Positions 30,983 through 48,023 of a stretch of 51,120 nucleotides of DNA are shown here, in pieces. Source of the stretch: Caldithrix abyssi (GTDB lineage Bacteria; Calditrichota; Calditrichia; Calditrichales; Calditrichaceae); the NCBI GenBank assembly GCA_011369465.1, contig DRQG01000054.1, forward strand, positions 1 through 51,120. Reading direction: 5' to 3'. Positions within the stretch are counted from its first letter, which is position 1, and the number at the start of each line of letters is the position of its first letter. The position numbers were made by a program, and so were the translations under genes. The notes under the pieces are model-generated. The model had not been told where the DNA came from. It saw only the letters and a list, made by a program, of their open reading frames with translations, and made no database searches.

Positions 30983-33757
30983 CTATTTATATCCTATCAA
31001 CTCCGAAAAAATGATGAGTATGATCAGGATGATTCCAATGGTGAGAAAAAGATACCCGAAAAAAGAAATGATTCGATCCCACTGTTTGGGGACATAATCC
31101 TTAACCACCACTTTCCGCAACAAACCTGTTCTCTTTAACCGCTCATATTCTTCCGGCCGTTCTTTCTTGTATTCCTCCAACGGCACAAGGCCGGTAAAAA
31201 TAACCTTATCCATCGGAAAGGATTCCGGGCGCAGATGTGTATTGAAAAAATGAATGGTAAAAATAAATCCGACAGCCAGCAGAGCTTCGTCACTGTGAAT
31301 AATGGTGGCTACATTGATCAGCCAGCCAGGCAGCCAGTTGGTAAAGAATTCCGGGAACCACAGCATTAAACCGGACAATCCGATAACCGCTACACCCCAA
31401 AAGACAGCGAAATAATCAAACTTTTCCCAATAGGTCCAACGCCCGTAATTCGGTTTGGGGCCCCGGCCAAGAAACCACTTCATGGTTGCCCAAAAATCTT
31501 TTATGTCTTTTTTATTGAACATCATCGAATTTTTACCCAGAAAGAACTCGAAAAAACCCTTTTTTGTTTGTTGTTTTTTCTTTATGAGCAAATACAAGTG
31601 GGATATAAAATATCCGAAGGTAATCATGGCTGCAATCCGATGAAGCGTCCCTGCGGCGATAACCCCGCCAATCGTTTCCGCTAACGTTTTTGCCCAGGGC
31701 ATTCCGGAAAATTTGAGCATCATTCCTGTAAGCGCTAAGGTTAAAAAGCTCAGGATAACAAACACATGGGTTATGCGATGCGGCCTTTCAAAACGGCGGA
31801 TATAATAGCGCGTTACCTGTTCTTTTTCTTCTTTTTTCCGTCGCAACATTTGTTTAAATGATTTTGGCAGCCAAAGTAAAGTATGAATGCCAAAGAATGA
31901 GAAAACGCTTATCAATAAAATCGTCATCGCCCAATAGGTGTAATACAAAATTGGATACTTTATAGGGTCATGGTGTGTGGCATGCGTTAAATAGCCGGTA
32001 AAACGCTCATTGGCATCTTTGTGACATTGCTGGCAGGTTTCTACAATATGGTACATGCTTACGCTGGAATTCGGATCGGATACAGGTCGAATTTTGTGCG
32101 CCGTGTGGCAATCGGAGCATTTAGCTGATTCCAGGTAGCCGAGGCGATAGGCTTTACCGTGCATAGTCTCTAAATAAGATTCGGATAAGTCGGTATGACA
32201 ACTACCGCAGGTTTGGGTTACCTCCGTCATAAATTTATCTTGTGTAACCGTACTGATGGTATGTGAAGAGTGGCAATTCGTACAGGTTGGCAGTTCCTGC
32301 ATCTTTTTGTCATCCGTTGAAAAATGAGCGCTTTTGATATAATCTTTGTAAATACCTCTATGGCAGGCTGCACAAGTGGCGGGAACATTTCTCTTATAAA
32401 CGGATGATCTCGGATTATCATGTTTTAATACCTGATGGGCGGTATGGCAGTCCGTACAAACAGCGCTGGGAAGCAGACCTTTTACCACCAGCCCCCGGCC
32501 GTGCACACTCTGCGAATAATCGGTATAGGCATCCACTTCAGCCAGTTCCTTTGTTTTCTCTACTGGGCTGTCCGACCGGTGGCATGTACCGCACAGCTTT
32601 GGTATGGCCGCTCTATAAGTAGGTGAGTTTTCATCAATATTCGCTTTTATATGATGATCGCCATGACAGGTTGTGCATTCCGGTGCGTCTTTCACTCCTT
32701 CTTGCAAGGCCTTACCATGACCGCTGTTAGCGAATTCCTCCGCAGTTTTGATATGACAATTGGAACAGTCCACCTTACCCGCGGTTTTACACGGTCTCTT
32801 TAAACGGGGGTTAACATCGCTGTGGCATTTTACGCAGCTTACTTCATTATGAACGGAAGATTTAATATCTTCCTTAACCACCTTTAACGATATTTCTTTA
32901 CCGTTTTCCGTTTTGTGAATGCCATCCTGACTATGGCATTTTAAGCAGGACTGATCGGCCACGGTTAGTACTACCGATTCTTTTCTGGCCTTATGCGGCA
33001 AGTGGCAATCTGTACAAGTTGGAATGGAGTTTGGGTCTTTACGCCATTTTTCACCTTCGATGACCTGTTTATGAACATCTTCAATTCTGGTATGGCATTT
33101 CATACAGGTTTTGGCCACGTTTCGCGGCGCAATGGACGATTTTTCATCGGTGTGCGGCAAGATTAGATGACTGTTATGACAATCCACACAAGCAGCCGTT
33201 ACAATCAATCCCTTTTTGAACAGACCTTCGCCATGGATACTGAGGCTGTAATTTTCCAGAATATTGTGTTCGGTAATGTTGTACACTTTGGCCACCGGGG
33301 CACCCTCTTTATGGCACTTACCACACAAAAAAGGTATGTTCATTTTGTAAGAAGGCGATTTGGGATCGGATATGGCCAGAATATCATGTTTCCCATGACA
33401 CTCGATACAGGTGGGAGCATAAATCTGTTTTGCGTGCAAAGCTTTTCCGTGGATACCCGCTTCATAATCGTGCTGCACATCGTCGTGACAATCGCCACAG
33501 AAAACAGGCTCCACTTCGCCCTCGTCGGGGTGCTCGTCCGTATTAACAGAGGAATGACAGTCGATACAATCTAATTCACCATGGATGGAATGGTTCACAA
33601 CGTCCTCATCCACAAATAAACTAATCTCTCTGTTGCCTCGCTCCATGGTTAATTCGGTATCATCATGGCAATCCAGGCATCCTTCACTATCTTCGGCTCT
33701 GGCAGAAAGGACAATTGAAAATAAAATCAGTATTGTTATGAAAACGGATGTTTTCAC
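30983..33757 (-). CDS. 19-haem cytochrome with C-terminal cytochrome b membrane domain
   Basis: About 924 aa. I prefer the GTG at 33757, which has GGAG 8 nt upstream and gives signal VKTSVFITILILFSIVLSARA; the TTG at 33781 would add eight charged residues. The periplasmic part (to about residue 600) holds 19 CxxCH motifs by my count, several in repeated GCLDCH / IHGELDCIDCH units. The last third is a membrane domain with about five helices (ILLISVFSFFGIHTLLWLP, HVFVILSFLTLALTGMML, GVAVIGLSGLMLWFPEFF and others) and His residues suited to two b haems, like cytochrome b561/CbcL-type quinol enzymes. It likely moves electrons between menaquinol and periplasmic cytochromes. A terminator precedes it, so it may be partly separate from the operon upstream. 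Confidence 0.88.
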   Translation of the reverse strand: MKTSVFITILILFSIVLSARAEDSEGCLDCHDDTELTMERGNREISLFVDEDVVNHSIHGELDCIDCHSSVNTDEHPDEGEVEPVFCGDCHDDVQHDYEAGIHGKALHAKQIYAPTCIECHGKHDILAISDPKSPSYKMNIPFLCGKCHKEGAPVAKVYNITEHNILENYSLSIHGEGLFKKGLIVTAACVDCHNSHLILPHTDEKSSIAPRNVAKTCMKCHTRIEDVHKQVIEGEKWRKDPNSIPTCTDCHLPHKARKESVVLTVADQSCLKCHSQDGIHKTENGKEISLKVVKEDIKSSVHNEVSCVKCHSDVNPRLKRPCKTAGKVDCSNCHIKTAEEFANSGHGKALQEGVKDAPECTTCHGDHHIKANIDENSPTYRAAIPKLCGTCHRSDSPVEKTKELAEVDAYTDYSQSVHGRGLVVKGLLPSAVCTDCHTAHQVLKHDNPRSSVYKRNVPATCAACHRGIYKDYIKSAHFSTDDKKMQELPTCTNCHSSHTISTVTQDKFMTEVTQTCGSCHTDLSESYLETMHGKAYRLGYLESAKCSDCHTAHKIRPVSDPNSSVSMYHIVETCQQCHKDANERFTGYLTHATHHDPIKYPILYYTYWAMTILLISVFSFFGIHTLLWLPKSFKQMLRRKKEEKEQVTRYYIRRFERPHRITHVFVILSFLTLALTGMMLKFSGMPWAKTLAETIGGVIAAGTLHRIAAMITFGYFISHLYLLIKKKQQTKKGFFEFFLGKNSMMFNKKDIKDFWATMKWFLGRGPKPNYGRWTYWEKFDYFAVFWGVAVIGLSGLMLWFPEFFTNWLPGWLINVATIIHSDEALLAVGFIFTIHFFNTHLRPESFPMDKVIFTGLVPLEEYKKERPEEYERLKRTGLLRKVVVKDYVPKQWDRIISFFGYLFLTIGIILIILIIFSELIGYK

Positions 33758-33883
33758 CTCGGATGCTCCTTTTTTCAACAACCATTTTTTAATTTAAATT
33801 CCTGAGATTTTAATATAACCGGTCGCCTCTTATCTGGTTTTATCGTGAATACCGGTTTCTTAATTTGAGGGGATATTCTGGAA

Positions 33884-33972: not shown

Positions 33973-35901
33973 TTAATCCTGGTGTGATTTTTTGTTTATT
34001 TTAATCTGCGATTTTAACTCCTCATATTCTAAGGGATGGTGATGTTTGAGTTCTTCTTCTGTTATCTTACCATCCATCCAGGTTAAACTGACCGGATATT
34101 TTTCCGGATGGAAAATAACGAAGAACCAGTGCCAAACAAGTATAGCTAAAGTCGCCAGCCAGGCTTCGTAATAATGAATAATTTCGGATGTTTCGAATAA
34201 CCAGGATGGAAAAATGCCTATAAATATCTCAGGGAACCAAAGTACCAGACCGCTGGCGCCCATGACTACAACACCCCAGATAAGGGCCAAATATTCGGCT
34301 TTTTCCGCATAATCAAATCGAGGGAATTTGGGTCGCTCACTCGTTAACCCGAGATGAAATTTAATATTTTGAATCAAGTCCTTTATGTCGTCTATCGTCG
34401 GCATTAATGCTTTAACATCGCGATGGCCTTTTTTTGTAAAGATAAAATAGAATAACTGGATTACGGAAATCGTTCCCATAACTATTGCCGCCGCCCTGTG
34501 TAAAGTGGAACGAATGGCCTCATTCATACCCAGGTCAACCAGTAAAGTAACCCAGCCGGCATTCGGAAATTTAAGCGCAAAACCGGTAACCGCCAGTGTG
34601 GTAAAGCTAAGAAACATAAGAAAGTGTTGATACACTTCCCACGATTGAAACCGTTGAACGCGCGGCATGTTCTTTTCTCTTTTACGTTTTTCCCGGATAA
34701 AATGTAAAAGAATCAGCATATTATGGACAAGCATACCGCCTATAACTACAATGATCAGCCAGGTATATACCACACGAAAAATATATGCGACCGGGTTTCT
34801 GGACTTTAAATCCAACGGGTGGACTTCAATGTTGATGAAACTTTCCGTAATATTATCGTGGCATTGTCCGCAGGTTTCTTTGAGATGTGCTTTATTTGTG
34901 CTGGCCAGAGGGTCCAGATTACTTCTAATGGAATGAACTTCGTGGCAGCTTGTACAGGTTGCCGCATCTTGATCACCCTTTAGCAAGGCCAACCCATGAT
35001 AGGAGCGGGCATAGGATTCAAATCGACGCGGGTCTAAACCATACCGCTGCATCATCACTTCGGAGGCATGACAGTTATTACAAATCTGGGAGGAAGCATT
35101 AAGTCTGTTTGTTACCGCGTCTTTGGACTTTGGTGAAAGGATTCGATGTTCACCGTGACAATCGTTACAGGCAGGGGCTTCCACATGCCCACGCTGAATG
35201 CCCTGCCAGTGAACACTCTGCTGGTATTCTTCAAAAATTTTCTCATGACAGGTGCCGCAGGTTTTCGGAATGTTTTGTTTACTGTAGCTACATTCAGGAT
35301 TTATTTTACTAAGTATTTGATGATAATCATGGCAATTAATACAGGTGGGGGGATTTTTATCAGGCTCTTCATGTAGAATTCTATCGTGCACACTGCCATG
35401 ATATTTAGAAACCGGCGTTTCACCCCGCAACCCCAAACGACGCATTACAGCCGGCTTATCATGACAATTCCCGCAAGTTTTTTCAATATTCAATTTATAG
35501 GTATGTGAATTTTTGTCGTCGGAAGGTAAAATATCATGTGTGCCGTGACAGTTTTTGCAGGTCGCTGTTTCAACAACAGTATCCATGCGTGAGAGCCAGT
35601 GTACACTTTTCTGATAATCTGCCTGCTCATCTTCGTGGCAATTTCCACAGGATACCGATGCCACTACTTCTTCATTAGGATGATCTTCAATCATTTCGTG
35701 GCAGTCGGTGCATTCCAGATCGCCATGGATGGAATTATCCAATACTTTATGATCCACGAAAACAGAGACTTCAACTGAATCGTTGATGGATTTAGTCAAA
35801 TCCCTTTCATTATGACAATCCATGCAATCATCATTCGTCTGTGTGAATGATAACATCGGCGTTACCAGTAAAAGGAACAGCCAGATTAAACTTTTTTTCA
35901 T
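33973..35901 (-). CDS. 11-haem cytochrome with C-terminal cytochrome b membrane domain
   Basis: A 642-aa protein: signal peptide (residues 3-20), then a periplasmic part with 11 CxxCH motifs (DCMDCHNE, ECTDCHEM, SCGNCHED and so on), then from about residue 370 a membrane domain with HNMLILLHFIREKR, FLMFLSFTTLALTGFALKF and GVVVMGASGLVLWFPEIF. It is a shorter paralogue of the 19-haem protein; the LTGFALKFP/LTGMMLKFS and SGLVLWFPEIF/SGLMLWFPEFF segments match directly. A quinol-linked role at the membrane is likely. GGAG precedes the ATG, and the 12-haem gene ends 15 bp upstream. Confidence 0.88.
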   Translation of the reverse strand: MKKSLIWLFLLLVTPMLSFTQTNDDCMDCHNERDLTKSINDSVEVSVFVDHKVLDNSIHGDLECTDCHEMIEDHPNEEVVASVSCGNCHEDEQADYQKSVHWLSRMDTVVETATCKNCHGTHDILPSDDKNSHTYKLNIEKTCGNCHDKPAVMRRLGLRGETPVSKYHGSVHDRILHEEPDKNPPTCINCHDYHQILSKINPECSYSKQNIPKTCGTCHEKIFEEYQQSVHWQGIQRGHVEAPACNDCHGEHRILSPKSKDAVTNRLNASSQICNNCHASEVMMQRYGLDPRRFESYARSYHGLALLKGDQDAATCTSCHEVHSIRSNLDPLASTNKAHLKETCGQCHDNITESFINIEVHPLDLKSRNPVAYIFRVVYTWLIIVVIGGMLVHNMLILLHFIREKRKREKNMPRVQRFQSWEVYQHFLMFLSFTTLAVTGFALKFPNAGWVTLLVDLGMNEAIRSTLHRAAAIVMGTISVIQLFYFIFTKKGHRDVKALMPTIDDIKDLIQNIKFHLGLTSERPKFPRFDYAEKAEYLALIWGVVVMGASGLVLWFPEIFIGIFPSWLFETSEIIHYYEAWLATLAILVWHWFFVIFHPEKYPVSLTWMDGKITEEELKHHHPLEYEELKSQIKINKKSHQD

Positions 35902-35916
35902 CGGAACTCCTGTATT

Positions 35917-36777
35917 CTAATTGTGGCACTGTATGCAGGCATCGTCACCGCTCGTATGACATACGGTACAACGGTCATAATCAATCCGTGCTTCCACCGC
36001 ATGCTGACTGGCCCAGTCCGGAGCAGAATGGTTTATCGGTACAATATAATTAATTGTCGTATGGCATTCAATACAGTAATTGGTGTTTTGATGGCATGTA
36101 AAACAGGAGCTTTCACGGGTTAAATAACTGGCAGAATGGGTTAAAATAAATTCTGCAGGGTGTGACTGATTCATCAGATTATCGCCCTGATGACAGTCTA
36201 TGCAATAACTCTTTTGATGGCAGGAATTACAATTTTCGCTACCGGTTTCCGCATAACTGCCATGGCTTCGTTTCCAATTTTCCATATGATTGGCCGGAAT
36301 TATGCTTTCGTTTTTATCGTGGCAAAGATAGCATCCTTCTGTGGTTTGAGGTACATCGTGGCAGTTCATACAGGTTTCCATAGTTGGCAGATGCATTCCC
36401 TCGGTAACAAATTCTTTTGCACTAATACCGCTATGGCAGGTTTCGCATTCGGTATCTCGATCGATATGTGCTTTATGACTGAAATGTGTTATGTAATTAT
36501 TAATTCTTGGCAGCAGGACGGGTTCTTCCCCATTTTTATGGCAGGAAGTACAATCCGTATCCTCTTCGTCATGACAGTTATAACATGTTTCCATATCCGG
36601 GAGCAAATCATCCGCGGCATTCTGGCTTTCTGCTGCCTTGGCATGGCAGTCGTTACAGTTCGCATCTGCTTCTTCCGTATGAAATTTATGTGAGAAAATC
36701 AAGTCGGAGTCCCAGTTAATTGCCGAGGCCAAAACCAGGCCCATAAAGCCAAGGATAGCTATTATTTTCATCTTCAT
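35917..36777 (-). CDS. 12-haem periplasmic c-type cytochrome
   Basis: A 286-aa secreted protein (signal MKMKIIAILGFMGLVLASA) with 12 CxxCH motifs, about one per 24 residues, ending in ACIQCHN at the very C-terminus. It also has many extra His residues for bis-His ligation (FSHKFH, FSHKAH, NHMENW). The density and length recall MtrA/DmsE-type electron-wire cytochromes, though MtrA has 10. Its gene lies 3 bp after the barrel gene at 36781 (same strand, barrel first), so the pair could form a barrel-plugging conduit. No catalytic site is evident. Confidence 0.88.
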   Translation of the reverse strand: MKMKIIAILGFMGLVLASAINWDSDLIFSHKFHTEEADANCNDCHAKAAESQNAADDLLPDMETCYNCHDEEDTDCTSCHKNGEEPVLLPRINNYITHFSHKAHIDRDTECETCHSGISAKEFVTEGMHLPTMETCMNCHDVPQTTEGCYLCHDKNESIIPANHMENWKRSHGSYAETGSENCNSCHQKSYCIDCHQGDNLMNQSHPAEFILTHSASYLTRESSCFTCHQNTNYCIECHTTINYIVPINHSAPDWASQHAVEARIDYDRCTVCHTSGDDACIQCHN

Positions 36778-36780
36778 AGT

Positions 36781-37989
36781 TTAGCTCCCAAAATTATAGA
36801 CAAGCCGAACACCGCCGCGGACAGAATTGTTGAGAATGTCTGTATTCTGGTAATAATTTAAGTTTGCTACCGCCATAAACGATTTCAGGAAGCGATAACG
36901 TAAACGCAGGTAATAGGCTATGGCGGTTTGGCTGTCCGTCTGATCATAAAAGGTATAGTTAACCGGCGCAATACCGCCGCTCACCATAAAATTCTTAGAT
37001 GGCGCATAGTGTCCGCCCAGGGTCAGGCTTAACCGTTTTATATCGGATTCGCCAAAAAGGTAGTTGAAACCAATGTTTAAAAATCGGTATTGATACGTAA
37101 GGTAAGTTACATAATCTTTACGTTCCGATGTCATTGCCACAATCTGATTGAAGTTGATTGTGCTAGTGGTAGAAATTTTGTATTGAATTCCGAGCATGAA
37201 GCGCTCTATTAAATAGGAAAAATCTACTTTGGGAAAATTCCATCCCTGCGGACGGAACAAATAATAATTCAGGCTGATATTGACCCGATCTGCTGCTTTG
37301 CAGAATAAATTCAAGCTTCCGTCGTCTAAGCGGCTATTGGTAAAGTCATACCCATAGTTTCCATTTACTCTTATTTTGAACAGAGTGAAGAAGAAATCCA
37401 TACCGGCTTTGGTTATGTTGCCGTCATAATAATACTTGGCTTTTAAGGAAGCTTTATTCCACGATACCGCCATATCGGCATAGGCCAGGGTTTTTTGGTT
37501 ATCCGAATCATACACCAGACCATAGGGAACATACAGGCCGCCTAAAGCGGAAATGCGAATACGTTGGCCCAGTTTAATGGCAAAGGCGCCGCCATCCACC
37601 GAACCCCTAAACCAACGGCCAAACGGCATAATTCTTCCGAGCTGAATGTTACCAACAGAAAAATCATAGCGTAGAAAGGCCTCATAGATTTTGGTCTGAT
37701 TCAGCCGTTCACCGGTATTGTAACCTGCACTGTCTGAGACTTCCACAAATCCGTCACTCCGCAACGCATTTACCCGGAAACTGAACTTATCCGCAAAATT
37801 GCCGTAGAGGCGTAATTGATTTACACTGCGTAAAAAAGCCTCATCATTACTGATAACCGAAATGTTTTTAGCGTTGTCGCTGTTCCAAAACGGTGTTCCC
37901 ATAAAAATACCGGTGGAGAAGCTGCCTTTTATATCTCCGGCCAGCAATATGGTTGGCAGGAGCGAAAATAAAATAATAAAAGTTTTCAT
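36781..37989 (-). CDS. Outer-membrane beta-barrel next to 12-haem cytochrome
   Basis: A 402-aa outer-membrane protein with a signal peptide (MKTFIILFSLLPTILLAG) and alternating strands to a final Phe-Gly-Ser (VYNFGS). Size fits a barrel of about 16 strands, well below the roughly 700 aa of MtrB-type conduits. The stop codon is 3 bp from the next gene, the 12-haem cytochrome, so the two are co-translated. It could be the porin half of a compact electron conduit or an independent porin. Confidence 0.7.
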   Translation of the reverse strand: MKTFIILFSLLPTILLAGDIKGSFSTGIFMGTPFWNSDNAKNISVISNDEAFLRSVNQLRLYGNFADKFSFRVNALRSDGFVEVSDSAGYNTGERLNQTKIYEAFLRYDFSVGNIQLGRIMPFGRWFRGSVDGGAFAIKLGQRIRISALGGLYVPYGLVYDSDNQKTLAYADMAVSWNKASLKAKYYYDGNITKAGMDFFFTLFKIRVNGNYGYDFTNSRLDDGSLNLFCKAADRVNISLNYYLFRPQGWNFPKVDFSYLIERFMLGIQYKISTTSTINFNQIVAMTSERKDYVTYLTYQYRFLNIGFNYLFGESDIKRLSLTLGGHYAPSKNFMVSGGIAPVNYTFYDQTDSQTAIAYYLRLRYRFLKSFMAVANLNYYQNTDILNNSVRGGVRLVYNFGS

Positions 37990-38072: not shown

Positions 38073-39005
38073 TTAATTACCCCAGGGTTTCGGCCATTTA
38101 TGCCCCGGTAAAACGTCATATATCATGGCATTTGTTCCGAATTTAATGGACTTAACATCATAGCCTAAAACCTTAAGATACGCAATCGTGGCTGCTGCGG
38201 TTTGGCCAGTCCAGCAGTACAGGATATTGTCACCGGCCGGGTCAAACGCCTTCAGGTTTTCGGTAGTTTTTATTGTTAGTGGAGTAAGCTGATAAGCTCC
38301 GTTTATATGACCAAGTGTAGTGTAATCGGTCTCACTCCAGTAATTCATAATATTGTAATCTTCGCGGTTGGCCATAACATCATCTGCAGATATCAGCATC
38401 CCATCATTCCAGGCGTCAATGGCCGCTTGAATTCTGGCGTCCAGAATATCTTCGGCTTCTGTCTTACCGGTGTTCAATTCCGGATAGTCAAATTCGGGTA
38501 AAGCCGGCGAGGCTGTAGTCACCCAATTGGGATCGCTTGCGAATTTATTGGAGCAGTTAGCGGTCCATTTATCCAAAGAAGCATCATAAATGCTCATACC
38601 GAATTTGAGCACATACGCATCATATCCTTTTAAACGTAACAGCATGTGCGCGAAAGATGCGGTTTGGCCAGTGTAACAAACCACAAGAATATCTTTGGTG
38701 GCGTCTTTAACCTTATCGAACATATTGTCTAAGGTGGCATTCACAGCATCCGGAATATGAAGCGCATTAAAATCTGCCTCCGAACGAAGGTCCAAAACAA
38801 AATAGTCAGCGGTGTTAATGTCGCTAAGGTTTACGATCCATCCACTGAGGTTATTTACCCATCCCTGATAATCCGCATCTCCGCTTTCGAGGTATTTAAC
38901 CAATACCTCAAATTCATTCACCTGGGGTTGTTCTTCGGTTGAACTGCTGCAACCGAAAAAGACAAGTAACGAGACGATTAGTAATAAAGGCATAATTTTT
39001 TTCAT
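38073..39005 (-). CDS. Lipoprotein with two rhodanese-like domains
   Basis: A 310-aa predicted lipoprotein (lipobox VFFGC near residue 19) with two rhodanese-type domains. The first (about 55-150) has FVLDLRSEADFNALHIPDA and active-site loop VCYTGQTA; the second (about 200-305) has GHINGAYQL and YCWTGQTA. Both keep the catalytic Cys. It could carry sulfane sulfur from thiosulfate or polysulfide to partners outside the inner membrane. It lies between a haem-rich lipoprotein gene (42 bp upstream) and the barrel gene, so it is part of the electron-transfer operon. No CxxCH is present. Confidence 0.85.
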   Translation of the reverse strand: MKKIMPLLLIVSLLVFFGCSSSTEEQPQVNEFEVLVKYLESGDADYQGWVNNLSGWIVNLSDINTADYFVLDLRSEADFNALHIPDAVNATLDNMFDKVKDATKDILVVCYTGQTASFAHMLLRLKGYDAYVLKFGMSIYDASLDKWTANCSNKFASDPNWVTTASPALPEFDYPELNTGKTEAEDILDARIQAAIDAWNDGMLISADDVMANREDYNIMNYWSETDYTTLGHINGAYQLTPLTIKTTENLKAFDPAGDNILYCWTGQTAAATIAYLKVLGYDVKSIKFGTNAMIYDVLPGHKWPKPWGN

Positions 39006-39046: not shown

Positions 39047-40468
39047 TTATTCCCAGCCATCCGGCAAATTGCCATCCACAACCACGGGGTCATTTGCTTG
39101 CACTTCATCGGGCCACTTTTCCTGTATTTCCGCGCGGAATAGAAAAATCTCTTTGTTCTCCGGCTTTCCAAAACCTTCCTTTGTATGACAATTATTATAA
39201 CAAGGCGAAGCATCGGTTCTTGGCGTCCAGCGCTGGATACTGTGGGGAGAGGCAAATTTCCATGTTGGAATCGTATTGTAATCCGGCAAATTAGCGGATG
39301 CGCTTCCCCAGTTTTCGTATGTATCGGGTGCGATCGGAATATGACGCACCACAGCATATTTCACATCGCTAAAATCTCTATGCGCAGGCAGCGGGTTCAA
39401 ACCGATTTTGAAATCCTCGTGGGGATTATTTTCCTGATAATCCGGATCGGTTTTCCATTCGCCTTTTACATGACATGCAGAACAATTATTATATTTTTGG
39501 GAATGACACACATAACAGGTCATATTATCCATGTGCATGGTATGATATAAATTTATCGTGGCAATAGAATCTGCCGGGTGACAGTCAAAACAGGAAGGAC
39601 GCAAATCGTAGGTATAACGGTCCGTATTATCCGTATCCGTTACCCTGGTGTGCATCTCGGATTGATTATGACAGTCAAAGCAATCCATATATAATGTTTT
39701 AAAATGCACATCCCCCTGGCGTTCTTCCAGCCCTTCTTCTCCGTAAAAATCGAACGCTACGCGCGATCCGTGACAGGCAGTGCAGTTTTTCTCCATATTG
39801 GGTGTTTTTTGAAAACGATGATCATTTACCAATCCCTTCCCGGCACTGTTGGGAATTGAAATATGACAGTCGCCGCAAGTGGCGTGACAGGAGGTACATT
39901 CCCCGTTAAATCCATCCCGGGTGGATTGGGGACATTGATCAAAGGAAGACACTCCGGAGCGTAAGGCGACATATTTACGTTCGCCCCAGAGTTGCTGATG
40001 CAAACTGTTATGATATTCCTCAGCCGTCGAAGTATGACATTCTTCTCCGGCACAGCTGTTGGAAACCTTGCCATCAACGGTTGTAAATTCTGATGGGTCC
40101 TGGATAAGTCCTTTGTGTGCCTTTTCTTTATTATTATTCTGCGTTTTGTCCCCGCCGTGACAGTCCACACAGCTTAATTCTTCAAAGTGGTGATCCAAAT
40201 CGGCAAGATTACCGGAACGAGGCAGTTTAATATACACTTTTTCCCATGGAGCCATGGGAGGCACGTCGCCGCCTCAGCCGCCGCCTCCACCACCGCCACC
40301 GGTGTCTTCTTCCGGCGCTAAGAGTTTCAGTCGTTCTTTGTTGGTGTGGCAATACACACAACCATCATCTCCCACAAAGATATTCTTGCCGGCATTTTCT
40401 TCTTCCAACAACTGTGTACATCCATACAATAACAGGAATAAAAAAAGAATGAATGATTTCTTATACAT
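39047..40468 (-). CDS. Multihaem lipoprotein with in-frame UGA in poly-Gly linker
   Basis: The frame opens at 40468 with MYKKSFILFLFLLLYGC, a lipoprotein signal, passes a first haem motif CVYCH, and enters a run of eight Gly. A TGA at 40274-40276 interrupts, and the same frame resumes with Gly-Gly-Asp and runs to 39047. Read through, it is about 473 codons with nine CxxCH motifs plus CX4CH (CAGEECH) and CX3CH (CYNNCH), so up to 11 haems. Without read-through the first product is a 64-aa monohaem lipoprotein; a GTG at 40264 could start the rest, but with no signal peptide it would not be matured. It heads the leftward operon behind a sigma-54-like promoter. Sequence error, suppression or decay are all possible. 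Confidence 0.8.
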
Positions 40469-40508
40469 TATAAACCTACCTTTTTGTGAAAATTATATCA
40501 TTGCTTAA

Positions 40509-40524
40509 TACAAAAGCCGTGCCA
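40509..40524 (-). promoter_or_regulatory. Sigma-54-type promoter, leftward
   Basis: On the minus strand TGGCACG-GCTT-TTGTA: the -24 box is exact and the -12 box has T in place of C (consensus TTGCA), spacing GG-N10-GT. Transcription would start near 40497, 29 nt before the start codon at 40468. Confidence 0.7.
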
Positions 40525-40610
40525 AAAATACCAGGGTATTCCCATGTTATCTAACCTCAATAAATTCAATGAATTTTAAGTTATATTTTCTTTAAGAGAT
40601 AAAAATTAAC

Positions 40611-40734
40611 GAAACGTGATGTTTCATTTAATACCTTTTTCTTTTATAAACCCAACTGCTATATAATATTTTCATCAAAGAAACATACTGTTTCACTAAA
40701 AAAAATGAAACGGCTTATGAAACATACCTGTTTC
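40611..40734. promoter_or_regulatory. Three GAAAC-N5/6-GTTTC palindromes (likely activator sites)
   Basis: Sites at 40611-40625 (GAAACGTGATGTTTC), 40680-40694 (GAAACATACTGTTTC) and 40719-40734 (GAAACATACCTGTTTC, 6-nt centre), plus a half site GAAAC at 40707-40711. They lie 90-200 bp upstream of the leftward sigma-54 promoter and 360-480 bp from the rightward one, as expected of enhancer sites for an NtrC-like activator, such as the protein at 46665. Binding by that protein is inferred. Confidence 0.7.
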
Positions 40735-41095
40735 CTGCGAACAGTTTATGTTGCTCCATTTATTTACTTTTTGATTTTTTATGTATTGCAAAAATCTTCT
40801 CTACCTGATAAGGGTTGGATTGTTCTTTCTAAAAAACAGTACGGCAACCGATTTATCTTAACCGTTTAAAAAGTGCTTTAAGGGCATTAAACAAAGAGTA
40901 AGCTATTGTTTAATTTTACAACGGTATGTTAAAATTATAAACAACACTAATATCAATGTTTACAAGGCGTTAAAGTTTTGTACGGGAAAAATGTTGTATA
41001 ATTCAACATCCCCGTTTTATTCCGTCTGTTTTATACCACCCTATATCTTATTGATTAATAACAACTTAACTATAATTCAATATTTAATGTTTTTT

Positions 41096-41111
41096 TGGCA
41101 TTGCATTTGAC
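41096..41111 (+). promoter_or_regulatory. Sigma-54-like promoter, rightward
   Basis: TGGCAT-TGCAT-TTGAC matches the consensus TGGCAC-N5-TTGCW except for the last -24 base and the C/A change in the -12 box (GG-N10-GA). Start would be near 41123, 30 nt before the ATG at 41153. Weaker than the leftward one. Confidence 0.45.
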
Positions 41112-41152
41112 TTTGTAAAAGTGAACAGCAAAACAAAACAAGGAGTCACAAA

Positions 41153-41839
41153 ATGGTCTTTATATTAGTTTTCTTAACCGTGGCAGTTTGTATCGCCCTT
41201 AATTATTTCCTTCAGCGGGAAGAACGTGCTTTGAAAGCAACTGAAAAGAAAAAGAAATCACCTATCTTTCTAAGCCCGGATAAAGCATTGTTGCCTATCA
41301 AAAGGAAGGGAGAGCGGTTTTATCACCCCAGTCATTCATGGGTACAAAAGGAAAAAGACGACATCTATTATGTTGGTTTTGATGACCTGATTTCATTTCT
41401 GTTTTCCGATCACATAAAGTTGAAAAACCTTCCTCTCATTGGCGCCAGTTTACCGCAAGGCAGTCCGATTTGGGATGTTTCAGTCAACGGGCACCATATT
41501 TTGCAATTAGCGCCTGTTTCAGGCGAGGTGGTTGATGTTAATCCGGCTTGTTGTCTGGATATGCCCCTGCCCTCCGATCAGGTGGAAAAATCGTGGATTC
41601 TTAAAATAAAAGCGGAACATTTCATAAAAGATGCCAACAATCTCATGTCCGATACTCAGGCAGATATTATGAATAATTCCATTCGTGATGAGATATTCTC
41701 TAAAGCAGTGAAGGGTAACTATGTAAATGATGGCGGTAAATTAGCTCCGGAGTTTGTTGAAAATATGTCGGAAGAAGACTGGCACAAATTTATTCAAAAG
41801 TATTTTCCGCACCAGGAAAAAACAATAACTCAATACTAA
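41153..41839 (+). CDS. Membrane-anchored GcvH-like protein 1
   Basis: A 228-aa protein with an N-terminal membrane helix (residues 1-18) followed by a basic stretch (RALKATEKKKK), so the domain should face the cytoplasm. About 60-160 resemble the glycine-cleavage H fold: YHPSHSWVQKE, YVGFDDL, LAPVSGEVVDVN. The position of the lipoyl Lys in true GcvH is Gly here (VNGHHILQLAPV), so lipoylation is unlikely. The C-terminal DGGKLAPEFVE motif is shared with the protein at 44202. It opens the NrfC/NrfD operon after AGGAG. Paired H-like proteins around NrfCD suggest a structural or redox adaptor role, unknown to me. Confidence 0.7.
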   Translation: MVFILVFLTVAVCIALNYFLQREERALKATEKKKKSPIFLSPDKALLPIKRKGERFYHPSHSWVQKEKDDIYYVGFDDLISFLFSDHIKLKNLPLIGASLPQGSPIWDVSVNGHHILQLAPVSGEVVDVNPACCLDMPLPSDQVEKSWILKIKAEHFIKDANNLMSDTQADIMNNSIRDEIFSKAVKGNYVNDGGKLAPEFVENMSEEDWHKFIQKYFPHQEKTITQY

Positions 41840-41944: not shown

Positions 41945-42065
41945 AATATTGAATGAATGAATTGTTGGTTTGAAACGACGCCGATATTTGGACTTTGGTG
42001 ATTTATTTTCAATAATTCGCCAATTCAGTAATTCATCATTGCAAACGTAAATGGGGAAACAACAC

Positions 42066-42920
42066 ATGGAACGCAGAGATTTTATAAAAACACTTGGAGT
42101 AATGGGCGGAACAGTTCTTAGCGGTAGAAAACTGCACGCCGAACAAAAAGCTAAGGCGGACGACAAAGAATTTGTAGGCATTCTTGTCGATACGACCCGC
42201 TGCGTTGGCTGCCAGGCTTGCAGCGAAGCCTGTGCCGAAGCCCATGGATTACCGGAGCCTGACCTGGATGAAGAAATCACCATGCAACGTAAAACTTCTA
42301 CAACCCAATGGACGGTGATCCGTGGCGATGAAGACAAAGAAATCTATGTTAAAACACAATGTATGCACTGTAATCAACCGGCCTGCGCTTCGGCGTGTCC
42401 AACCCAGGCTATGTACAAAACACCGGAAGGCCCGGTCATCTGGCGGGAAGATAAATGCATGGGCTGTCGTTTTTGTATGATTTCCTGCCCCTTCGATATT
42501 CCTAAATTCGAATATGACAGTCCCATTCCCAAAATCCAAAAATGTATTATGTGCTGGGATCGTCTGCAGGAAGGTGAAGAACCGGCCTGTACAGAGACTT
42601 GTCCCGAAGAGGCTATTATTTTTGGAAAACGGCGCAATCTTCTCGAAGAAGCGCGTTCGCGAATTTACAATAATCCGGATGATTATGTTCATTATATATA
42701 TGGCGAAAATGAAGCCGGCGGAACCGGATACATATATCTATCTGCCATCCCTTTCGAAGAACTGGGTTTCCGTACAGATATTGATAAAAAAGCATATCCT
42801 GAGTTAACCACCGAATTTCTATACAGTGTACCTGTTATTTTAACTCTGTGGCCTGCATTTTTACTGGCCTTGAATAAAGCCACAAAACCCGACGAAGAAA
42901 ATGAAGAAAGCGAGGATTGA
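42066..42920 (+). CDS. NrfC/DmsB-type ferredoxin subunit with Tat signal
   Basis: About 284 aa. ATG 42066 (GGGGA 8 nt upstream) gives a twin-arginine signal MERRDFIKTLGVMGG, so it is exported folded to the periplasm. Four cluster motifs account for four [4Fe-4S] centres: CVGCQACSEACAE, CMHCNQPACASACP, CMGCRFCMISCP and CIMCW...CTETCP. A hydrophobic C-terminal segment (FLYSVPVILTLWPAFLLAL) may anchor it. It is the electron-carrying partner of the NrfD-like protein whose gene starts 1 bp after its stop. Direction of electron flow cannot be read from sequence. Confidence 0.9.
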   Translation: MERRDFIKTLGVMGGTVLSGRKLHAEQKAKADDKEFVGILVDTTRCVGCQACSEACAEAHGLPEPDLDEEITMQRKTSTTQWTVIRGDEDKEIYVKTQCMHCNQPACASACPTQAMYKTPEGPVIWREDKCMGCRFCMISCPFDIPKFEYDSPIPKIQKCIMCWDRLQEGEEPACTETCPEEAIIFGKRRNLLEEARSRIYNNPDDYVHYIYGENEAGGTGYIYLSAIPFEELGFRTDIDKKAYPELTTEFLYSVPVILTLWPAFLLALNKATKPDEENEESED

Positions 42921-42921
42921 C

Positions 42922-44223
42922 ATGGACGGAGGAAACGGTAAATATCATTTGCTCAAATCCGAATCAAAACGGTTTTTCCGCTTTTTCTTAAGCGAGCTTA
43001 AACCCAAAGGACCTCTTTTAACTCCATTTAATATTGTCGCTGCGATCATCATATCCGTAGGGATGGTCCTTATTGTTATTCGTTTTGCTACCGGCCTGGG
43101 CTCAGTAACCAATTTAAGCCAGGAATTTCCCTGGGGTATCTGGATCGGTTTTGATGTGGTTACGGGAGTTGCCTTTGCCGGCGGCGCTTATGTGCTTACT
43201 TTTATGGTTTATATCCTGCGTCTTGAAAAATATCACTCCGTGGTTCGCATCACCGTTGTAAACGGATTTTTAGCTTACGTGTTTTATGCCGGGGCTCTGC
43301 TGCTGGATTTGGGACGTCCCTGGAACGTAATCAATCCCATCATCGGTAATAACTTCGGCGTTAGCTCGGTTATGTTTCTGGTGGCTTGGCATTTTATGCT
43401 GTATATGATGGCAGAATTTGTTGAGTTTTCGCCGGCGGTTGCCGAATGGCTGGGCTGGAAACGCATTCATAAGGTGCTTAGTTCTCTTACCCTTGCTGCG
43501 GTTATATTCGGTATTACGCTTTCCACTTTGCATCAATCCGGTCTTGGCGCATTATTCTTAATGGCCAAAAACAAAATTCATCCGCTATGGTATTCTGAAT
43601 TCATTCCCATTCTCTTCTTTGTTTCCAGTATTTTTGCCGGGCTGTCCATGGTCATATTCGAAGGAAGCATCAGTCATAAGGTATTTCGTCATCGTTTAAG
43701 CAGAGAGGCTCACGAAAAACACGATGATATAGTGTTGGGTCTGGGACGTATTTGCGCCGGAACGATGTTTGTATATTTCTTTTTGAAAGTGCTTGTTTTT
43801 CTGCACGGACAACACTGGTCATATCTCGATACGCCCTGGGGTTATTGGTTTTTAGTGGAGATTATAGGTTTTGTTGTTGTGCCCGGGGGATTATACACGC
43901 AAGCCGTGCGCACTCGTAATATTTCACTTATAAAAATTGCTTCGGGAATCACACTGGCGGGTATTATCCTTAACCGGCTCAATGTTTCTGTGATCGCTTT
44001 TAAATGGTATGCACCGCACCACTATATTCCCCATTGGATGGAAATCTGGATAACACTTACCGTTGTATTTGCCGAACTGATCGTTTTGCGCTGGATTGTT
44101 AACCGCATGCCTATCTTGAGTGATCCGCCGGCCTGGGCGCAGAAGAAAAAAGAGCTAAAAAGAACGATAAAATATATCCCATTAGAAGAGGAGAAAGAAG
44201 AATGGACAGTTTCCACTATGTAG
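42922..44223 (+). CDS. NrfD/HybB-type membrane quinol oxidoreductase subunit
   Basis: About 433 aa with roughly nine or ten membrane helices. I chose the ATG at 42922, with GAGG 6 nt upstream; an ATG at 42901 lies inside the NrfC-like gene. Characteristic stretches are ELKPKGPLLTPFNIVAA, QEFPWGIWIGFDVVTGVAFAGGAYVLTF, LLLDLGRPWN and HQSGLGALFLMA. Members bind menaquinol at the periplasmic side and pass electrons to the ferredoxin subunit. The 3' end overlaps the second H-like gene by 22 bp. Confidence 0.9.
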   Translation: MDGGNGKYHLLKSESKRFFRFFLSELKPKGPLLTPFNIVAAIIISVGMVLIVIRFATGLGSVTNLSQEFPWGIWIGFDVVTGVAFAGGAYVLTFMVYILRLEKYHSVVRITVVNGFLAYVFYAGALLLDLGRPWNVINPIIGNNFGVSSVMFLVAWHFMLYMMAEFVEFSPAVAEWLGWKRIHKVLSSLTLAAVIFGITLSTLHQSGLGALFLMAKNKIHPLWYSEFIPILFFVSSIFAGLSMVIFEGSISHKVFRHRLSREAHEKHDDIVLGLGRICAGTMFVYFFLKVLVFLHGQHWSYLDTPWGYWFLVEIIGFVVVPGGLYTQAVRTRNISLIKIASGITLAGIILNRLNVSVIAFKWYAPHHYIPHWMEIWITLTVVFAELIVLRWIVNRMPILSDPPAWAQKKKELKRTIKYIPLEEEKEEWTVSTM

Positions 44224-44900
44224 ATCTCTTTGCTACCAAAGGCATTGAGTATATCCTAATATTAGGATTCTTGGCCGTTTTGGTTTGGTATTGGAGGTAC
44301 CTGAACAAGCCCGTTGTCAGCGGGGCTAAAGCCGTTCGTGAAAAAATAAAAACCACTATGGTAGATTGGTTTGTCCTTGCCAACGATTTCTATTATCACC
44401 CGGGGCATACCTGGGCGGTGCCGGAGCAAGAGGGTGTGCTGCGTGTGGGTGTTGACGACTTTGCCCAAAAATTAGTTGGCAAACCGTCTGCCATAGAACT
44501 GCCCACGGTAGGTGAGCATCTGGTACAGGGCGATGTGGGCTGGAAGATGAAGGTGGACTCTAAGACAATCGACGTGCTGTCACCAGCCAATGGTGAAGTT
44601 ATTGCGGTTAACGAACGTGTTCTTCAATCACCGAATCTAATTAATGAAGACCCGTATAAAAACGGATGGCTGTTAAAAATTAAGACTCCGCAAATGAAAG
44701 CCAATCTGAAAAATCTGCTTAACGGCAATATGGCTCGTGCCTGGATGGAATATACCACACATCAAATCAGCCGTACACTTTCCAACGATACTGTTCCGGT
44801 TTTGCAGGATGGCGGTAAAATTGTTCCGGGGTTTGCCAAAGAAATAGAACCGCAAAACTGGGATAAACTCGCCCGGCATTTTTTACTGACGGATGATTAG
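44202..44900 (+). CDS. Membrane-anchored GcvH-like protein 2
   Basis: A 232-aa paralogue of the protein at 41153. A membrane helix at about 15-30 (EYILILGFLAVLVWYW) is followed by basic residues, so the rest faces the cytoplasm. The H-fold runs from YYHPGHTWAVPEQE through LPTVGEHLVQGD to LSPANGEVIAVNERV and NEDPYKNGWLLKI. A Lys (VDSKTIDVL) lies one residue off the usual lipoyl position, so modification is uncertain. It ends with DGGKIVPGFAKEI, the motif shared with H-like 1. Its start lies inside the NrfD-like gene, and a terminator follows. Confidence 0.75.
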   Translation: MDSFHYVDLFATKGIEYILILGFLAVLVWYWRYLNKPVVSGAKAVREKIKTTMVDWFVLANDFYYHPGHTWAVPEQEGVLRVGVDDFAQKLVGKPSAIELPTVGEHLVQGDVGWKMKVDSKTIDVLSPANGEVIAVNERVLQSPNLINEDPYKNGWLLKIKTPQMKANLKNLLNGNMARAWMEYTTHQISRTLSNDTVPVLQDGGKIVPGFAKEIEPQNWDKLARHFLLTDD

Positions 44901-44973: not shown

Positions 44974-46647
44974 TTGCCCGCTATGATTAATTTAGTACAT
45001 TATGTAAAAAACGACCATAACCTTCTTCGAATTATGCGTATTTTAAAATTGCTTAGCTTTAAAATATTTGTGCTTATCTTTGCTATCCTGGCTCTCTCAT
45101 CGGTGGGAATTACCTATTTCCAGACCCAATCGCAAGCTGAACATTACAACGACATGCTTACTCTTTGTGCCATACGTACCAGCAATATAATCCGGGCATC
45201 TACACGTTATGCCATGCTGTTAAACCGAAGAGAAGACACGGTCAACATTATTCAAACCATCGGTAAGCAACATGGTATTGAACGGATTCGCATTTATAAT
45301 AAGAGAGGCGAAATAATTTTCTCGACCGATACAAGCGAGGTAAACCAGACAATCGATATGACTATTCCGGAATGTGCGGCTTGTCATGGCCCTGAAGGTG
45401 AAATATTGCAAATAAAACAACCCGATCAACTCAAAAGAATCATTACACGGCCTGACGGTTCCCGGGAGCTGGGATTTATCACCCCCATACCTAATGAACA
45501 AAGCTGTTATACGGCAGATTGCCACATTCATACCCGGAACGATAAAATTCTCGGCGTACTGGATGTTTCTCTATCCATGAAAGATACGGATGCAATCCTC
45601 GATCAGGAAAAGACGATAATGTTTAGATACAACATTGCCGTAACCCTGTCCCTTGCTTTGATCGTCGGGTTGGTTATCTGGGTAGGTGTTCATGTACCCA
45701 TAACCAAATTCTTAATTGGTACAAGAGAAATTTCGTCGGGAAATTTAAATTATACAATCGACATTAAACGAAACGATGAAATCGGCGTTTTTGCCGAATC
45801 TTTTAACAAAATGACCGAAGACCTGCGTAAGGCTAAAAAAGAGATTACGGAATGGTCTTCCGAGCTCGAAAAACGAGTGGAAGAAAAAACAGAAGAACTG
45901 AAAAAAACCCAGGAACGCATTCTGCAAATCGAAAAAATGGCCTCATTGGGCAAGCTTTCGGCTACGGTTGCACATGAACTGAACAACCCCATGGCCGGCA
46001 TTCTCACGTACAGTAAACTTATCCAGCGCAAACTGCAAAACAAGGACCTGCAGCCGGAGGAGAAAGATACCATACTGAAACAACTTAAAATGATCGAAAG
46101 CGAAAGCGACCGCTGCGGTAAAATAATAAAAGACCTTTTGCTTTTTTCCAAAAAACAACGTATCGAAATTAAACCAAACTCGCTTAATGACATCGTAAAA
46201 ATGTCCTTACAACTGGTGAGCCATCACCTGGAGTTGAATAATATTGAAGTGCGCAAGGAACTGCAACCCAACCTGCCCCAGGTTAACGTGGACGAAAATC
46301 AGATTAAACAGATGCTGCTGGCGCTTATCGTTAACGCCGTAGAGGCAATGGATGAAAACGGTGTGTTGACGATTTCGACCATCTATAAGGCATCGGAAAA
46401 AAAGGTCTATCTCTCCGTAAAAGATAACGGCAGAGGCATCCCGGAAGAGGTAATGCCGCATATCTTTGAACCCTTCTTTACTACTAAAAACGCGGTGAAA
46501 GGCTTTGGGTTGGGACTTTCGGTAGTGTACGGTATTGTAGAAAACCACCGGGGAGAAATTAAAGTTGACTCCCGACCAAATGAAGGAACAACTTTTACCA
46601 TCAAATTGCCAATTAATCTCGAGGTAAACAAGGATCTGCAAATCTGA
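44974..46647 (+). CDS. Sensor histidine kinase with haem-c-type periplasmic domain
   Basis: A 557-aa kinase (numbering from TTG 44974; ATG 44983 or 45034 are equally possible because no ribosome site is clear). Membrane helix at about 28-48, periplasmic sensor 49-215 with CAACH (134-138) and CYTADCH (178-184), second helix 219-240, HAMP 241-295, dimerisation domain with H334 in VAHELNNPMAG, and an ATPase domain with DNGRGIPEE and GFGLGLSVVYGIVENH. A covalent haem in the sensor would let it read redox state, O2, NO or a similar ligand, as in Geobacter haem-PAS sensors. Partner regulator is the next gene, 17 bp on. Confidence 0.88.
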   Translation: MPAMINLVHYVKNDHNLLRIMRILKLLSFKIFVLIFAILALSSVGITYFQTQSQAEHYNDMLTLCAIRTSNIIRASTRYAMLLNRREDTVNIIQTIGKQHGIERIRIYNKRGEIIFSTDTSEVNQTIDMTIPECAACHGPEGEILQIKQPDQLKRIITRPDGSRELGFITPIPNEQSCYTADCHIHTRNDKILGVLDVSLSMKDTDAILDQEKTIMFRYNIAVTLSLALIVGLVIWVGVHVPITKFLIGTREISSGNLNYTIDIKRNDEIGVFAESFNKMTEDLRKAKKEITEWSSELEKRVEEKTEELKKTQERILQIEKMASLGKLSATVAHELNNPMAGILTYSKLIQRKLQNKDLQPEEKDTILKQLKMIESESDRCGKIIKDLLLFSKKQRIEIKPNSLNDIVKMSLQLVSHHLELNNIEVRKELQPNLPQVNVDENQIKQMLLALIVNAVEAMDENGVLTISTIYKASEKKVYLSVKDNGRGIPEEVMPHIFEPFFTTKNAVKGFGLGLSVVYGIVENHRGEIKVDSRPNEGTTFTIKLPINLEVNKDLQI

Positions 46648-46664
46648 TAAAACAGGATACAATT

Positions 46665-48023
46665 ATGAAAAACGAAGATATCAAAATCCTTGTCGTGGAT
46701 GACGAAGAAATTGTACGTGAATCACTCACCGGATGGTTCGAAGAAGACGGTTACACGGTAGATAATGCCAAAGATGCCGTAGAGGCTTTGAATAAAATGA
46801 CTAGGACCCGCTGGGATATTTACTTTGTGGATATCAAAATGCCCGGAATGGACGGATTGGAACTGCAGCGGCGTATCCGGGAAATCGACAATGAGGCCAT
46901 CGTCATTATAATCACAGCCTATGCCTCGGTCGATACCGCTGTACAGGCACTCAAAGAGGGCGCATTCGATTATATCACCAAGCCGTTTGATCCGGATCAG
47001 TTGAGCCGTCTTATCCGCAATGCCGCTAAACAGCGTCGCCTTTCTCTGGAAAATAAAGAGCTCAAAGGAAGTCTGGAACAATTAATTACCCCTCCGGAGA
47101 TCATCGGTAGCAGCCAACACACCGAAGAGATAAAAAAATCCATAGAAGTTGTGGCGCCAACTAACACAACCGTAATGATCCGTGGTGAGAGCGGTACCGG
47201 TAAGGAACTGGTTGCCCGGGCGATACACGCTCACAGTGACCGGCGCTATTTTCCTCTGGTTACCGTAAACTGCGGTGCACTGTCCGACAGTCTGCTGGAG
47301 AGTGAGCTGTTCGGTCATGAAAAAGGCGCCTTTACCGGTGCCTTGTACCGACGCAAAGGCAAGCTGGAAATTGCCAATGGAGGCACACTGTTTCTTGATG
47401 AAGTGGGCACTATAGGCCCCAAAACGCAGGTGGATTTACTACGGGCTATCGAATCCAAAGAGTTCACCCGTTTGGGCGGCAATGAAACGATTCGCTCCGA
47501 CTTCCGGATTATCTGCGCCACCAATACCAACCTGGAAGAAGCGGTAAAGGAAATGAAATTTCGGGAAGATCTGTATTATCGCTTGCAGGTTTACGTAATT
47601 CAGTTAAAACCTTTACGCGAACGGCCGGAGGATATACCCGAGCTGGTCAACTATTTTATACGCCGCTACAGCCAAAAAATGAACAAACCGATCAAAGGCA
47701 TTGATCGAGAAGCCCTGGATATGCTGATGGCCTATTCCTGGCCGGGCAACATCCGTGAATTGGAAAATGCCGTGGAAGCCGCTATGGTAGTTACAAAGGG
47801 TCCGTCTTTACAGCGGAACAACTTTAAACTGAATCATTCCGACCAACCCCTTGTATTTAGCTCTGATCTTTCTTTGGCAGAAGTGGAAAAAAACCATATC
47901 CTCAATGTTTTGCAGGCCCACAACTGGAACATCACCACTGCGGCTAAACTGTTGGGGATAGACCGCGTAACCATCTATAAAAAACTCCGTAAGTACGGCA
48001 TCCAGCGTCCGAAAAATGCGTAA
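46665..48023 (+). CDS. Sigma-54-dependent response regulator, NtrC family
   Basis: A 452-aa three-domain activator. Receiver 1-120 with acidic pocket VVDDEE and phospho-acceptor D56 (VDIKMPGMDG), AAA+ domain about 145-385 with Walker A GESGTGKE (174-181) and the sigma-54-contacting GAFTGA loop (221-226), and a C-terminal Fis-type helix-turn-helix (WNITTAAKLLGIDRVTIYKKLRKYG). It is cognate to the kinase just upstream. The divergent sigma-54-like promoters at 40509 and 41096 with GAAAC palindromes between them are its most likely targets. Confidence 0.93.
   Translation: MKNEDIKILVVDDEEIVRESLTGWFEEDGYTVDNAKDAVEALNKMTRTRWDIYFVDIKMPGMDGLELQRRIREIDNEAIVIIITAYASVDTAVQALKEGAFDYITKPFDPDQLSRLIRNAAKQRRLSLENKELKGSLEQLITPPEIIGSSQHTEEIKKSIEVVAPTNTTVMIRGESGTGKELVARAIHAHSDRRYFPLVTVNCGALSDSLLESELFGHEKGAFTGALYRRKGKLEIANGGTLFLDEVGTIGPKTQVDLLRAIESKEFTRLGGNETIRSDFRIICATNTNLEEAVKEMKFREDLYYRLQVYVIQLKPLRERPEDIPELVNYFIRRYSQKMNKPIKGIDREALDMLMAYSWPGNIRELENAVEAAMVVTKGPSLQRNNFKLNHSDQPLVFSSDLSLAEVEKNHILNVLQAHNWNITTAAKLLGIDRVTIYKKLRKYGIQRPKNA

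Follow-up and report, generated by a model that had tools for sequence, protein, structure and literature searches.

Two putative sigma-54 control units between divergent respiratory operons of a Calditrichota-like bacterium

Introduction

A 684-bp intergenic region with a respiratory operon on either side, the two being divergent, raises the question of whether both operons answer to one regulator or each to its own. The region lies in a window of 51,120 nucleotides, which is the whole stretch of DNA analysed here and corresponds to contig C54 in a genome of 4.3 Mb and 161 contigs (G000). A preliminary description of the window proposed a single path, in which a haem-sensing kinase signals to the regulator encoded beside it and this regulator acts through three palindromes on both operons. 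Our literature search did not find a paper combining sigma-54 and Caldithrix, nor one on BccR/CbcBA, a sigma-54 regulator of cytochromes in Geobacter. What the region may offer is a testable sigma-54 enhancer code for extracellular-electron-transfer genes, i.e., a site, a spacing, a promoter and a candidate activator.

Results and discussion

Promoter-like elements and palindromes in the intergenic region

The features of the region are as follows.

40509–40524, minus strand: leftward sigma-54-like promoter, TGGCAC-N5-TTGT, TGGCACGGCTTTTGTA (pattern match and homologous upstream regions)
40611–40625, unstranded: putative promoter-proximal enhancer palindrome, conserved and placed 101 bp from the -24, GAAACGTGATGTTTC
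40680–40694, unstranded: putative distal enhancer palindrome, conserved and spaced 69 bp from the proximal one, GAAACATACTGTTTC
40707–40711, plus strand: lone GAAAC half-site (pattern match)
40719–40734, unstranded: third palindrome, a 16-mer, GAAACATACCTGTTTC (pattern match)
40991–41009, unstranded: site tentatively assigned to the neighbouring regulator, serving the rightward promoter, ATGTTGTATAATTCAACAT (hexamer enrichment)
41096–41111, plus strand: rightward sigma-54-like promoter, TGGCAT-N5-TTGA, TGGCATTGCATTTGAC (pattern match; similar element in 6 of 11 upstream regions)

The two outward-facing elements are located as first described, about 42 nt from the start codons: the left one, read from 40524 to 40509, ends 40 nt ahead of the ATG at 40468, and the right one ends 41 nt ahead of the ATG at 41153. 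Both have a perfect -24 and the correct spacing, and the canonical GC of the -12 is absent from both, the left reading TTGT and the right TTGA. The pattern TGGCAY-N5-TTG has no other match in the 51 kb window, and by sequence alone this pair is within chance (1.07 matches expected, with two or more in 26 of 100 shuffles). Genome-wide, TGGCAY-N5-TTGNW gives 58 matches versus 38 for the reversed pattern. The case for both elements rests on their placement and conservation. The genome carries one copy of rpoN (Sigma54_DBD, 209.8 bits).

A sigma-70 scan of the intergenic region gave 4 matches versus 4.2 in shuffles, i.e., no excess, and an Rfam scan of the window gave zero matches. Three overlapping sigma-70-like matches were seen at 40962–40905 on the minus strand, near the rightward side.

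Between the promoters lie the three GAAAC-N5/6-GTTTC palindromes that had been described, where 0.0014 are expected; none of 5000 shuffles reached three. Genome-wide enrichment of GAAAC-N4/8-GTTTC was considered as further support and rejected, with 32 matches versus 35 for the reversed control, and because this loose palindrome is at background across the genome, significance attaches to the cluster alone. Across the 15 family genomes there are 12 copies of the exact 15-mer GAAACANNNTGTTTC, versus 6 for its reversed control. Eight of the 12 occurrences are upstream of a homologous leftward operon (G000, G001 twice, G002, G003, G005, G008 and G014), and the remaining four are elsewhere (G012, G009, G002 contig 164 and G007).

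Conservation of the leftward control region

The leftward operon and the elements discussed with it are, from the promoter outward:

39047–40468, minus strand: lead gene, predicted selenocysteine-containing multihaem lipoprotein, with an in-frame TGA at 40276–40274 (translation and homologues)
40242–40259, minus strand: hairpin after the UGA, candidate SECIS element, GCUC loop (single-sequence fold)
38073–39005, minus strand: rhodanese lipoprotein (domain search)
36781–37989, minus strand: beta-barrel-like protein with zero Pfam matches, the barrel being inferred from sequence
35917–36777, minus strand: 12-haem cytochrome (CXXCH count)
33973–35901, minus strand: multihaem c/b561 fusion with 11 CXXCH (domains and CXXCH count)
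30983–33781, minus strand: multihaem c/b561 fusion with 19 CXXCH, preceded by a 191-nt gap (domains and CXXCH count)

Given the gap of 191 nt, the last gene perhaps forms a separate unit. Counted over the four leftward cytochromes, CXXCH motifs number 51 (19+11+12+9), to which the rightward octahaem protein adds 8, in agreement with the earlier count of more than 50. From its gene content, the operon is predicted to encode an outer-membrane electron conduit.

In a set of 40 class genomes, 15 gave homologues of the lead cytochrome, and with G014 added 16 genomes were compared. TGG[CT]A[CT]-N5-TTG[CT] precedes the leftward operon in 13 of the 16 (exceptions G004, G030 and G016), a count obtained after the -24/-12 pattern was broadened from TGGCA to TGG[CT]A on inspecting G005 and G014 by eye. 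The -12 of the orthologous promoters is TTGC or TTGT. The upstream sites of G012 were not scored because its contig starts just before its promoter. Among the 15 scorable genomes, 11 have at least one strong site, i.e., one that matches 11 or 12 of the 12 arm bases; G010 has a single weak site (10/12), and G004, G030 and G016 have zero sites. The preliminary description had named the absence of palindromes from relatives that keep the operons as evidence against itself. Of the 12 family genomes with a promoter match and a scorable upstream region, 11 have a strong palindrome, the twelfth being G010.

In nine genomes, which span eight genera, the sites are paired 67–71 bp apart (G000, G011, G006, G008, G007, G003, G001, G002 and G013). 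Pairwise identity among eight of these (G013 left out), with no correction for phylogeny, is 78% for the sites, 51% for the intervening spacers and 52% for shuffled spacers. Because the sites are conserved while the identity of the spacer equals that of shuffled DNA, the comparison is strong evidence that the palindromes and their spacing are under selection. The nearer site is 78, 89–91 or 101 bp from the -24 in eight genomes, i.e., in steps of about one helical turn; the distances of 93, 95 and 81 bp in G013, G014 and G005 blur this helical phasing. The sites thus have what is expected of the upstream activating sequences (UAS) of enhancer-binding proteins (EBPs): they are repeated and inverted, stand 78–101 bp from the -24, where roughly 80–250 bp from the promoter is usual for such sites, and are conserved against drift. 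Most UAS are placed 100–250 bp upstream in the part of PMC6615313 consulted. In kind, the region is an ordinary sigma-54 enhancer region, and as such it is well supported as real.

The rightward operon, its kinase and the neighbouring regulator

On the other side, the genes are:

41153–41839, plus strand: GcvH-like protein 1 (domain search)
42051–42920, plus strand: 4Fe-4S protein (domain search)
42901–44223, plus strand: NrfD/HmcC-like membrane subunit (domain search)
44202–44900, plus strand: GcvH-like protein 2 (domain search)
44974–46647, plus strand: sensor kinase with CxxCH and Cx4CH haem-c motifs (domains and motifs)
46665–48023, plus strand: NtrC-type response regulator with GAFTGA (domains and motif)
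48016–48543, plus strand: peptidase M54-like protein (domain search)
48675–50081, plus strand: octahaem cytochrome, TIGR04315, 8 CXXCH (model match and CXXCH count)

Domains and motifs bear out the earlier account of an NtrC-type regulator with GAFTGA and a Fis helix, 5.5 kb away and beside a haem sensor kinase. Specifically, the regulator matches Response_reg (PF00072), Sigma54_activat (PF00158) and HTH_8 (PF02954), all above cut-off, and GAFTGA is read in it. The kinase matches PF00512, PF02518 and HAMP and carries the motifs CAACH and CYTADCH. CxxCH and Cx4CH are kept in all 16 kinases compared, a set that includes the one of the window, and this combination of HisKA/HATPase_c with conserved haem-c motifs is what defines a haem-c sensor kinase by sequence. 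That its signal is a haem ligand, as first suggested, is a guess; since its haem-c motifs are of the covalent type, redox state or a gas could just as well be what it senses.

Judged by record titles, several phyla share the rightward gene set together with its kinase and regulator (L035, L036, L044, L045, L048 and others). A similar promoter element stands upstream of 6 of 11 operon starts on the GcvH/FeS side, all six with TTGA or TTGG at the -12, and a match in the right place was not found at the other five (L038, L042, L045, L046 and L048). The matches at 41096–41111 of the window and in L035, L044, L036, L037 and L039 share this TTGA/TTGG -12, not TTGC, and may possibly represent a sub-class of sigma-54 promoter.

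The upstream regions linked to the regulator were taken as the six with a promoter match, the same five loci being left out. In these, TTCAAC/GTTGAA occurs 9 times versus 1.6 expected and is among the most over-represented hexamers, with a modest score of 5.4; the motif was picked after inspection, and G036 is without it. A search for a clean second palindrome upstream of the gene for GcvH-like protein 1 gave just a loose GTTGAA/TTCAAC half-site. It is more likely, if tentatively so, that the haem-c kinase and the neighbouring regulator drive the rightward operon through such a site.

The rightward module resembles Hmc/Ohc-type complexes in that its NrfD-like subunit is nearest HmcC (429 bits) and its octahaem cytochrome is a member of TIGR04315 (609.7, cut-off 375). 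It differs from them in that the HmcC score is under the cut-off of 550 and two GcvH-like subunits flank the module. In a relative, a response-regulator receiver is fused to a GcvH-like domain (L150:18896–19681, PF00072 and PF01597, one protein scanned), and at the homologues in L140, L141, L143, L146 and L148 receiver and GcvH matches lie side by side. The GcvH-like proteins of the window are separate subunits, unlike the fusion of L150.

Which protein reads the palindromes

Sequence comparison indicates that the palindromes probably answer to a redox-type activator encoded elsewhere and not to the neighbouring regulator. The candidate is a one-component PAS-AAA-Fis activator (PAS-EBP), the gene for which is on contig C106 of G000. 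At 59–73% identity it is found in 12 other family genomes, which with G000 makes 13 of 15 (G003 and G004 are without it), and further orthologues are in G022, G031, G038, G032 and G028. GAAAC/GTTTC half-sites lie on at least one side of the gene in all 18 orthologues, whose flanks together hold 110 versus 18.2 in shuffles (the largest of 500 shuffles held 36). They come in several orders and spacings, and the 15-mer form is not constant. A sigma-54 match lies within 250 nt downstream in 11 of the 18. When the flanks of the 30 EBPs of the genome are compared, some of them ending at a contig edge, the PAS-EBP has 7 half-sites, the next EBP 4 and the neighbouring regulator 0. In G005, G014 and G013 a paralogue of the PAS-EBP with 41–43% identity is divergent from the leftward operon, with sites in between.

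Strong sites and the PAS-EBP are concordant in 13 of the 15 scorable genomes, ten having both and three (G004, G030 and G016) neither. The discordant genomes are G003, which has both sites and no detected PAS-EBP (89% complete), and G010, which has the PAS-EBP and a weak site. A one-sided Fisher test, calculated by hand and with no correction for phylogeny, gives approximately 0.03 for this co-occurrence.

Three cysteines in the PAS domain (positions 52, 61 and 65 in G000) are kept in all 21 aligned proteins, two of 23 loci having been left out where the script found no open frame. Downstream of the PAS-EBP in G000, behind the promoter match TGGCACATCGTTTGC, are the genes for a TPR protein and BshB1, a bacillithiol deacetylase (295.5 bits, cut-off 182.5). 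Because the same half-sites occur at its own gene and at the adjacent TPR-bshB1 operon, the PAS-EBP is probably a thiol or redox sensor, a reading drawn from this gene context and the PAS cysteines. The loci L216:834–1280 (minus strand) and L205:4087–4617, just downstream of the PAS-EBP, encode a small TPR protein in which a DDCPC motif is conserved; in G000 the gene for it overlaps bshB1.

Among known activators, PrdR of Clostridia (NF041552) is the best-scoring NCBIfam model for the PAS-EBP and aligns across PAS, AAA+ and HTH, but its identity with PrdR was rejected at 354.8 bits versus a curated cut-off of 795. In the same portion of PMC6615313, PrdR sites are reported as TGT-N10/12-ACA, whereas those of the window are GAAAC/GTTTC, and the targets also differ. 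For Desulfovibrio too, the main text of PMC4641369 describes a one-component EBP whose sites precede the sigma-54 promoters for a multihaem electron-transfer complex (DVU3142 and the octahaem Ohc). That text, which leaves the motif logos to figures outside the present coverage, does not contain GAAAC/GTTTC; further differences from the Desulfovibrio regulons it describes are that in the window genome the gene for the putative reader lies away from the operon and that its flanking targets include bshB1. It also reports that EMSA was required to pick between the neighbouring EBPs DVU2956 and DVU2960.

A different protein that also acts at the PAS-EBP locus, either another EBP or a conventional dimeric repressor or activator, could read the palindromes instead, given that the genome encodes about 30 EBPs and that G003 keeps the sites where the PAS-EBP went undetected. 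We regard this as unlikely, since sites 78–101 bp upstream of the -24 are enhancer-like and do not overlie the promoter, and since every other EBP of the genome has fewer half-sites beside its gene than the PAS-EBP, where they are present in every orthologue.

We give still less credence to the wiring first described, in which the regulator at 46665–48023, phosphorylated by the haem-c kinase, would bind the palindromes and activate both operons. It is the nearest EBP, in the same island and with GAFTGA and a Fis helix, and EBP genes are often near their targets, as stated in the main text of PMC4641369. However, its orthologues (57–78% identity) are found in six class genomes (G036, G024, G035, G023, G034 and G031) and in no other family genome, where the best matches are EBPs of 43–47%, so relatives keep the sites without the regulator: palindrome pairs are present in eight other family genomes and a single strong site in two more. 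Moreover, its recognition helix DRVTIYKKLRKYGI is unlike the PAS-EBP helix GRTTLWRKMK/HKTTLFRKIK, and the six regulator-linked upstream regions hold GAAAC/GTTTC 4 times versus 3.96 expected. The distribution of orthologues and this background level of GAAAC rule against the neighbouring regulator as the leading reader; a promoter island can have a reader other than the regulator closest to it.

In the other direction, seven leftward upstream regions (leaving out G010, G030 and G004) hold 30 GAAACA/TGTTTC versus 2.0 expected, with no enrichment of TTCAAC/GTTGAA. This two-way dissociation, like the sites, their spacing and the conservation of the promoter, comes from comparison of sequences, and by it the palindromes are predicted to serve the leftward operon alone. 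Divergent control of the respiratory island by sigma-54-type promoters is supported; the single path serving both operons is not.

Chance, with promoter matches and palindromes both functionless, is highly improbable. In its favour, a window of this size should hold about one match to the sigma-54 pattern by sequence alone, and the palindrome is at background across the genome. Against it are a cluster so far above expectation and a pair kept with its spacing in nine genomes of eight genera while the spacer was randomised in the eight compared.

A model with two control units

The reading that we prefer, and hold to be probable, is that the region contains two separate sigma-54 control units, the PAS-EBP on the palindromes driving the leftward operon and the neighbouring regulator driving the rightward one. 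In the first unit, TGGCACGGCTTTTGTA would drive the genes for the selenocysteine cytochrome lipoprotein, the rhodanese lipoprotein, the beta-barrel-like protein, the 12-haem cytochrome and the b561/c fusion. Its enhancer would be formed by the GAAACA-N3/4-TGTTTC palindromes, including a pair spaced by 69 bp of which the nearer member stands 101 bp ahead of the -24, and would be bound by the PAS-AAA+-Fis EBP with three invariant PAS cysteines encoded on contig C106. The same half-sites would let this activator control itself and the adjacent TPR-bshB1 (bacillithiol) operon. In the second unit, TGGCATTGCATTTGAC would drive the genes for the GcvH-like, FeS, NrfD/HmcC-like and second GcvH-like proteins, the haem-c kinase, the NtrC-type regulator and the M54 protein, and may extend to the octahaem cytochrome; its activator would be the NtrC-type regulator, acting via GTTGAA/TTCAAC sites such as ATGTTGTATAATTCAACAT at 40991–41009. 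The identity of the binding protein, the signals, the limits of the operons and all of the wiring of the second unit are what we infer here.

A fuller version can be put forward with distinctly less assurance. The three-Cys PAS-EBP may sense thiol or redox state and switch on the selenocysteine conduit, bacillithiol synthesis and itself through the 69-bp-spaced sites, while a second, haem-c-sensing EBP system runs the divergent inner-membrane complex and the lead cytochrome belongs to a selenoprotein family distinct from ExtKL. If so, two redox inputs that are independent of each other would meet at one promoter island in Calditrichota-like bacteria.

The lead cytochrome as a predicted selenoprotein

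The first leftward gene is predicted to encode a selenoprotein multihaem lipoprotein. Its in-frame TGA at 40276–40274 (minus strand) falls between Gly8 and GG. This UGA is codon 65, in the context GG-U-GG, after the first CXXCH and ahead of most haem motifs. It is at the identical position in 16 loci, and a 17th homologue, in G016, has Cys instead (GGCGG). Directly after the UGA, most single sequences fold into a hairpin of 5–6 bp with a GUU-type loop; the hairpin of the window differs from those of its relatives in having 7 bp and a GCUC loop, and the minimum folds of G004 and G004b are without one. For the SECIS region, a consensus fold calculated with the window sequence excluded was weak and did not recover the hairpin of most single folds. 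The genome encodes the selenocysteine machinery (SelB, 346 bits; tRNA-Sec, 70.9 bits). By sequence, the gene therefore has the marks of a selenoprotein gene: a conserved UGA, a Cys homologue, a hairpin in most sequences, and SelB with tRNA-Sec. Standard annotation would split such a gene or cut it at the UGA.

We did not find the lead cytochrome in print, within an incomplete coverage of the literature; ExtKL and TIGR04315 are named among selenoproteins in the part of a 2026 review consulted (PMC13188914). As far as the extHIJKL conduit of Geobacter is described in the consulted parts of PMC6148476 and PMC5877670, it shares with the leftward operon a rhodanese lipoprotein, a beta-barrel protein and a UGA-Sec multihaem cytochrome in one cluster. 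In those descriptions, the UGA of ExtKL follows a five-haem domain, whereas here it is early, after the first CXXCH; the gene order also differs, a lipoprotein cytochrome leading the operon of the window. Membership of ExtKL (NF040886) was rejected: three full-length proteins gave no match at E≤1, and the UGA does not come after a pentahaem domain. The in-frame UGA of the window gene at 39047–40468 has a counterpart at L149:1976–3325.
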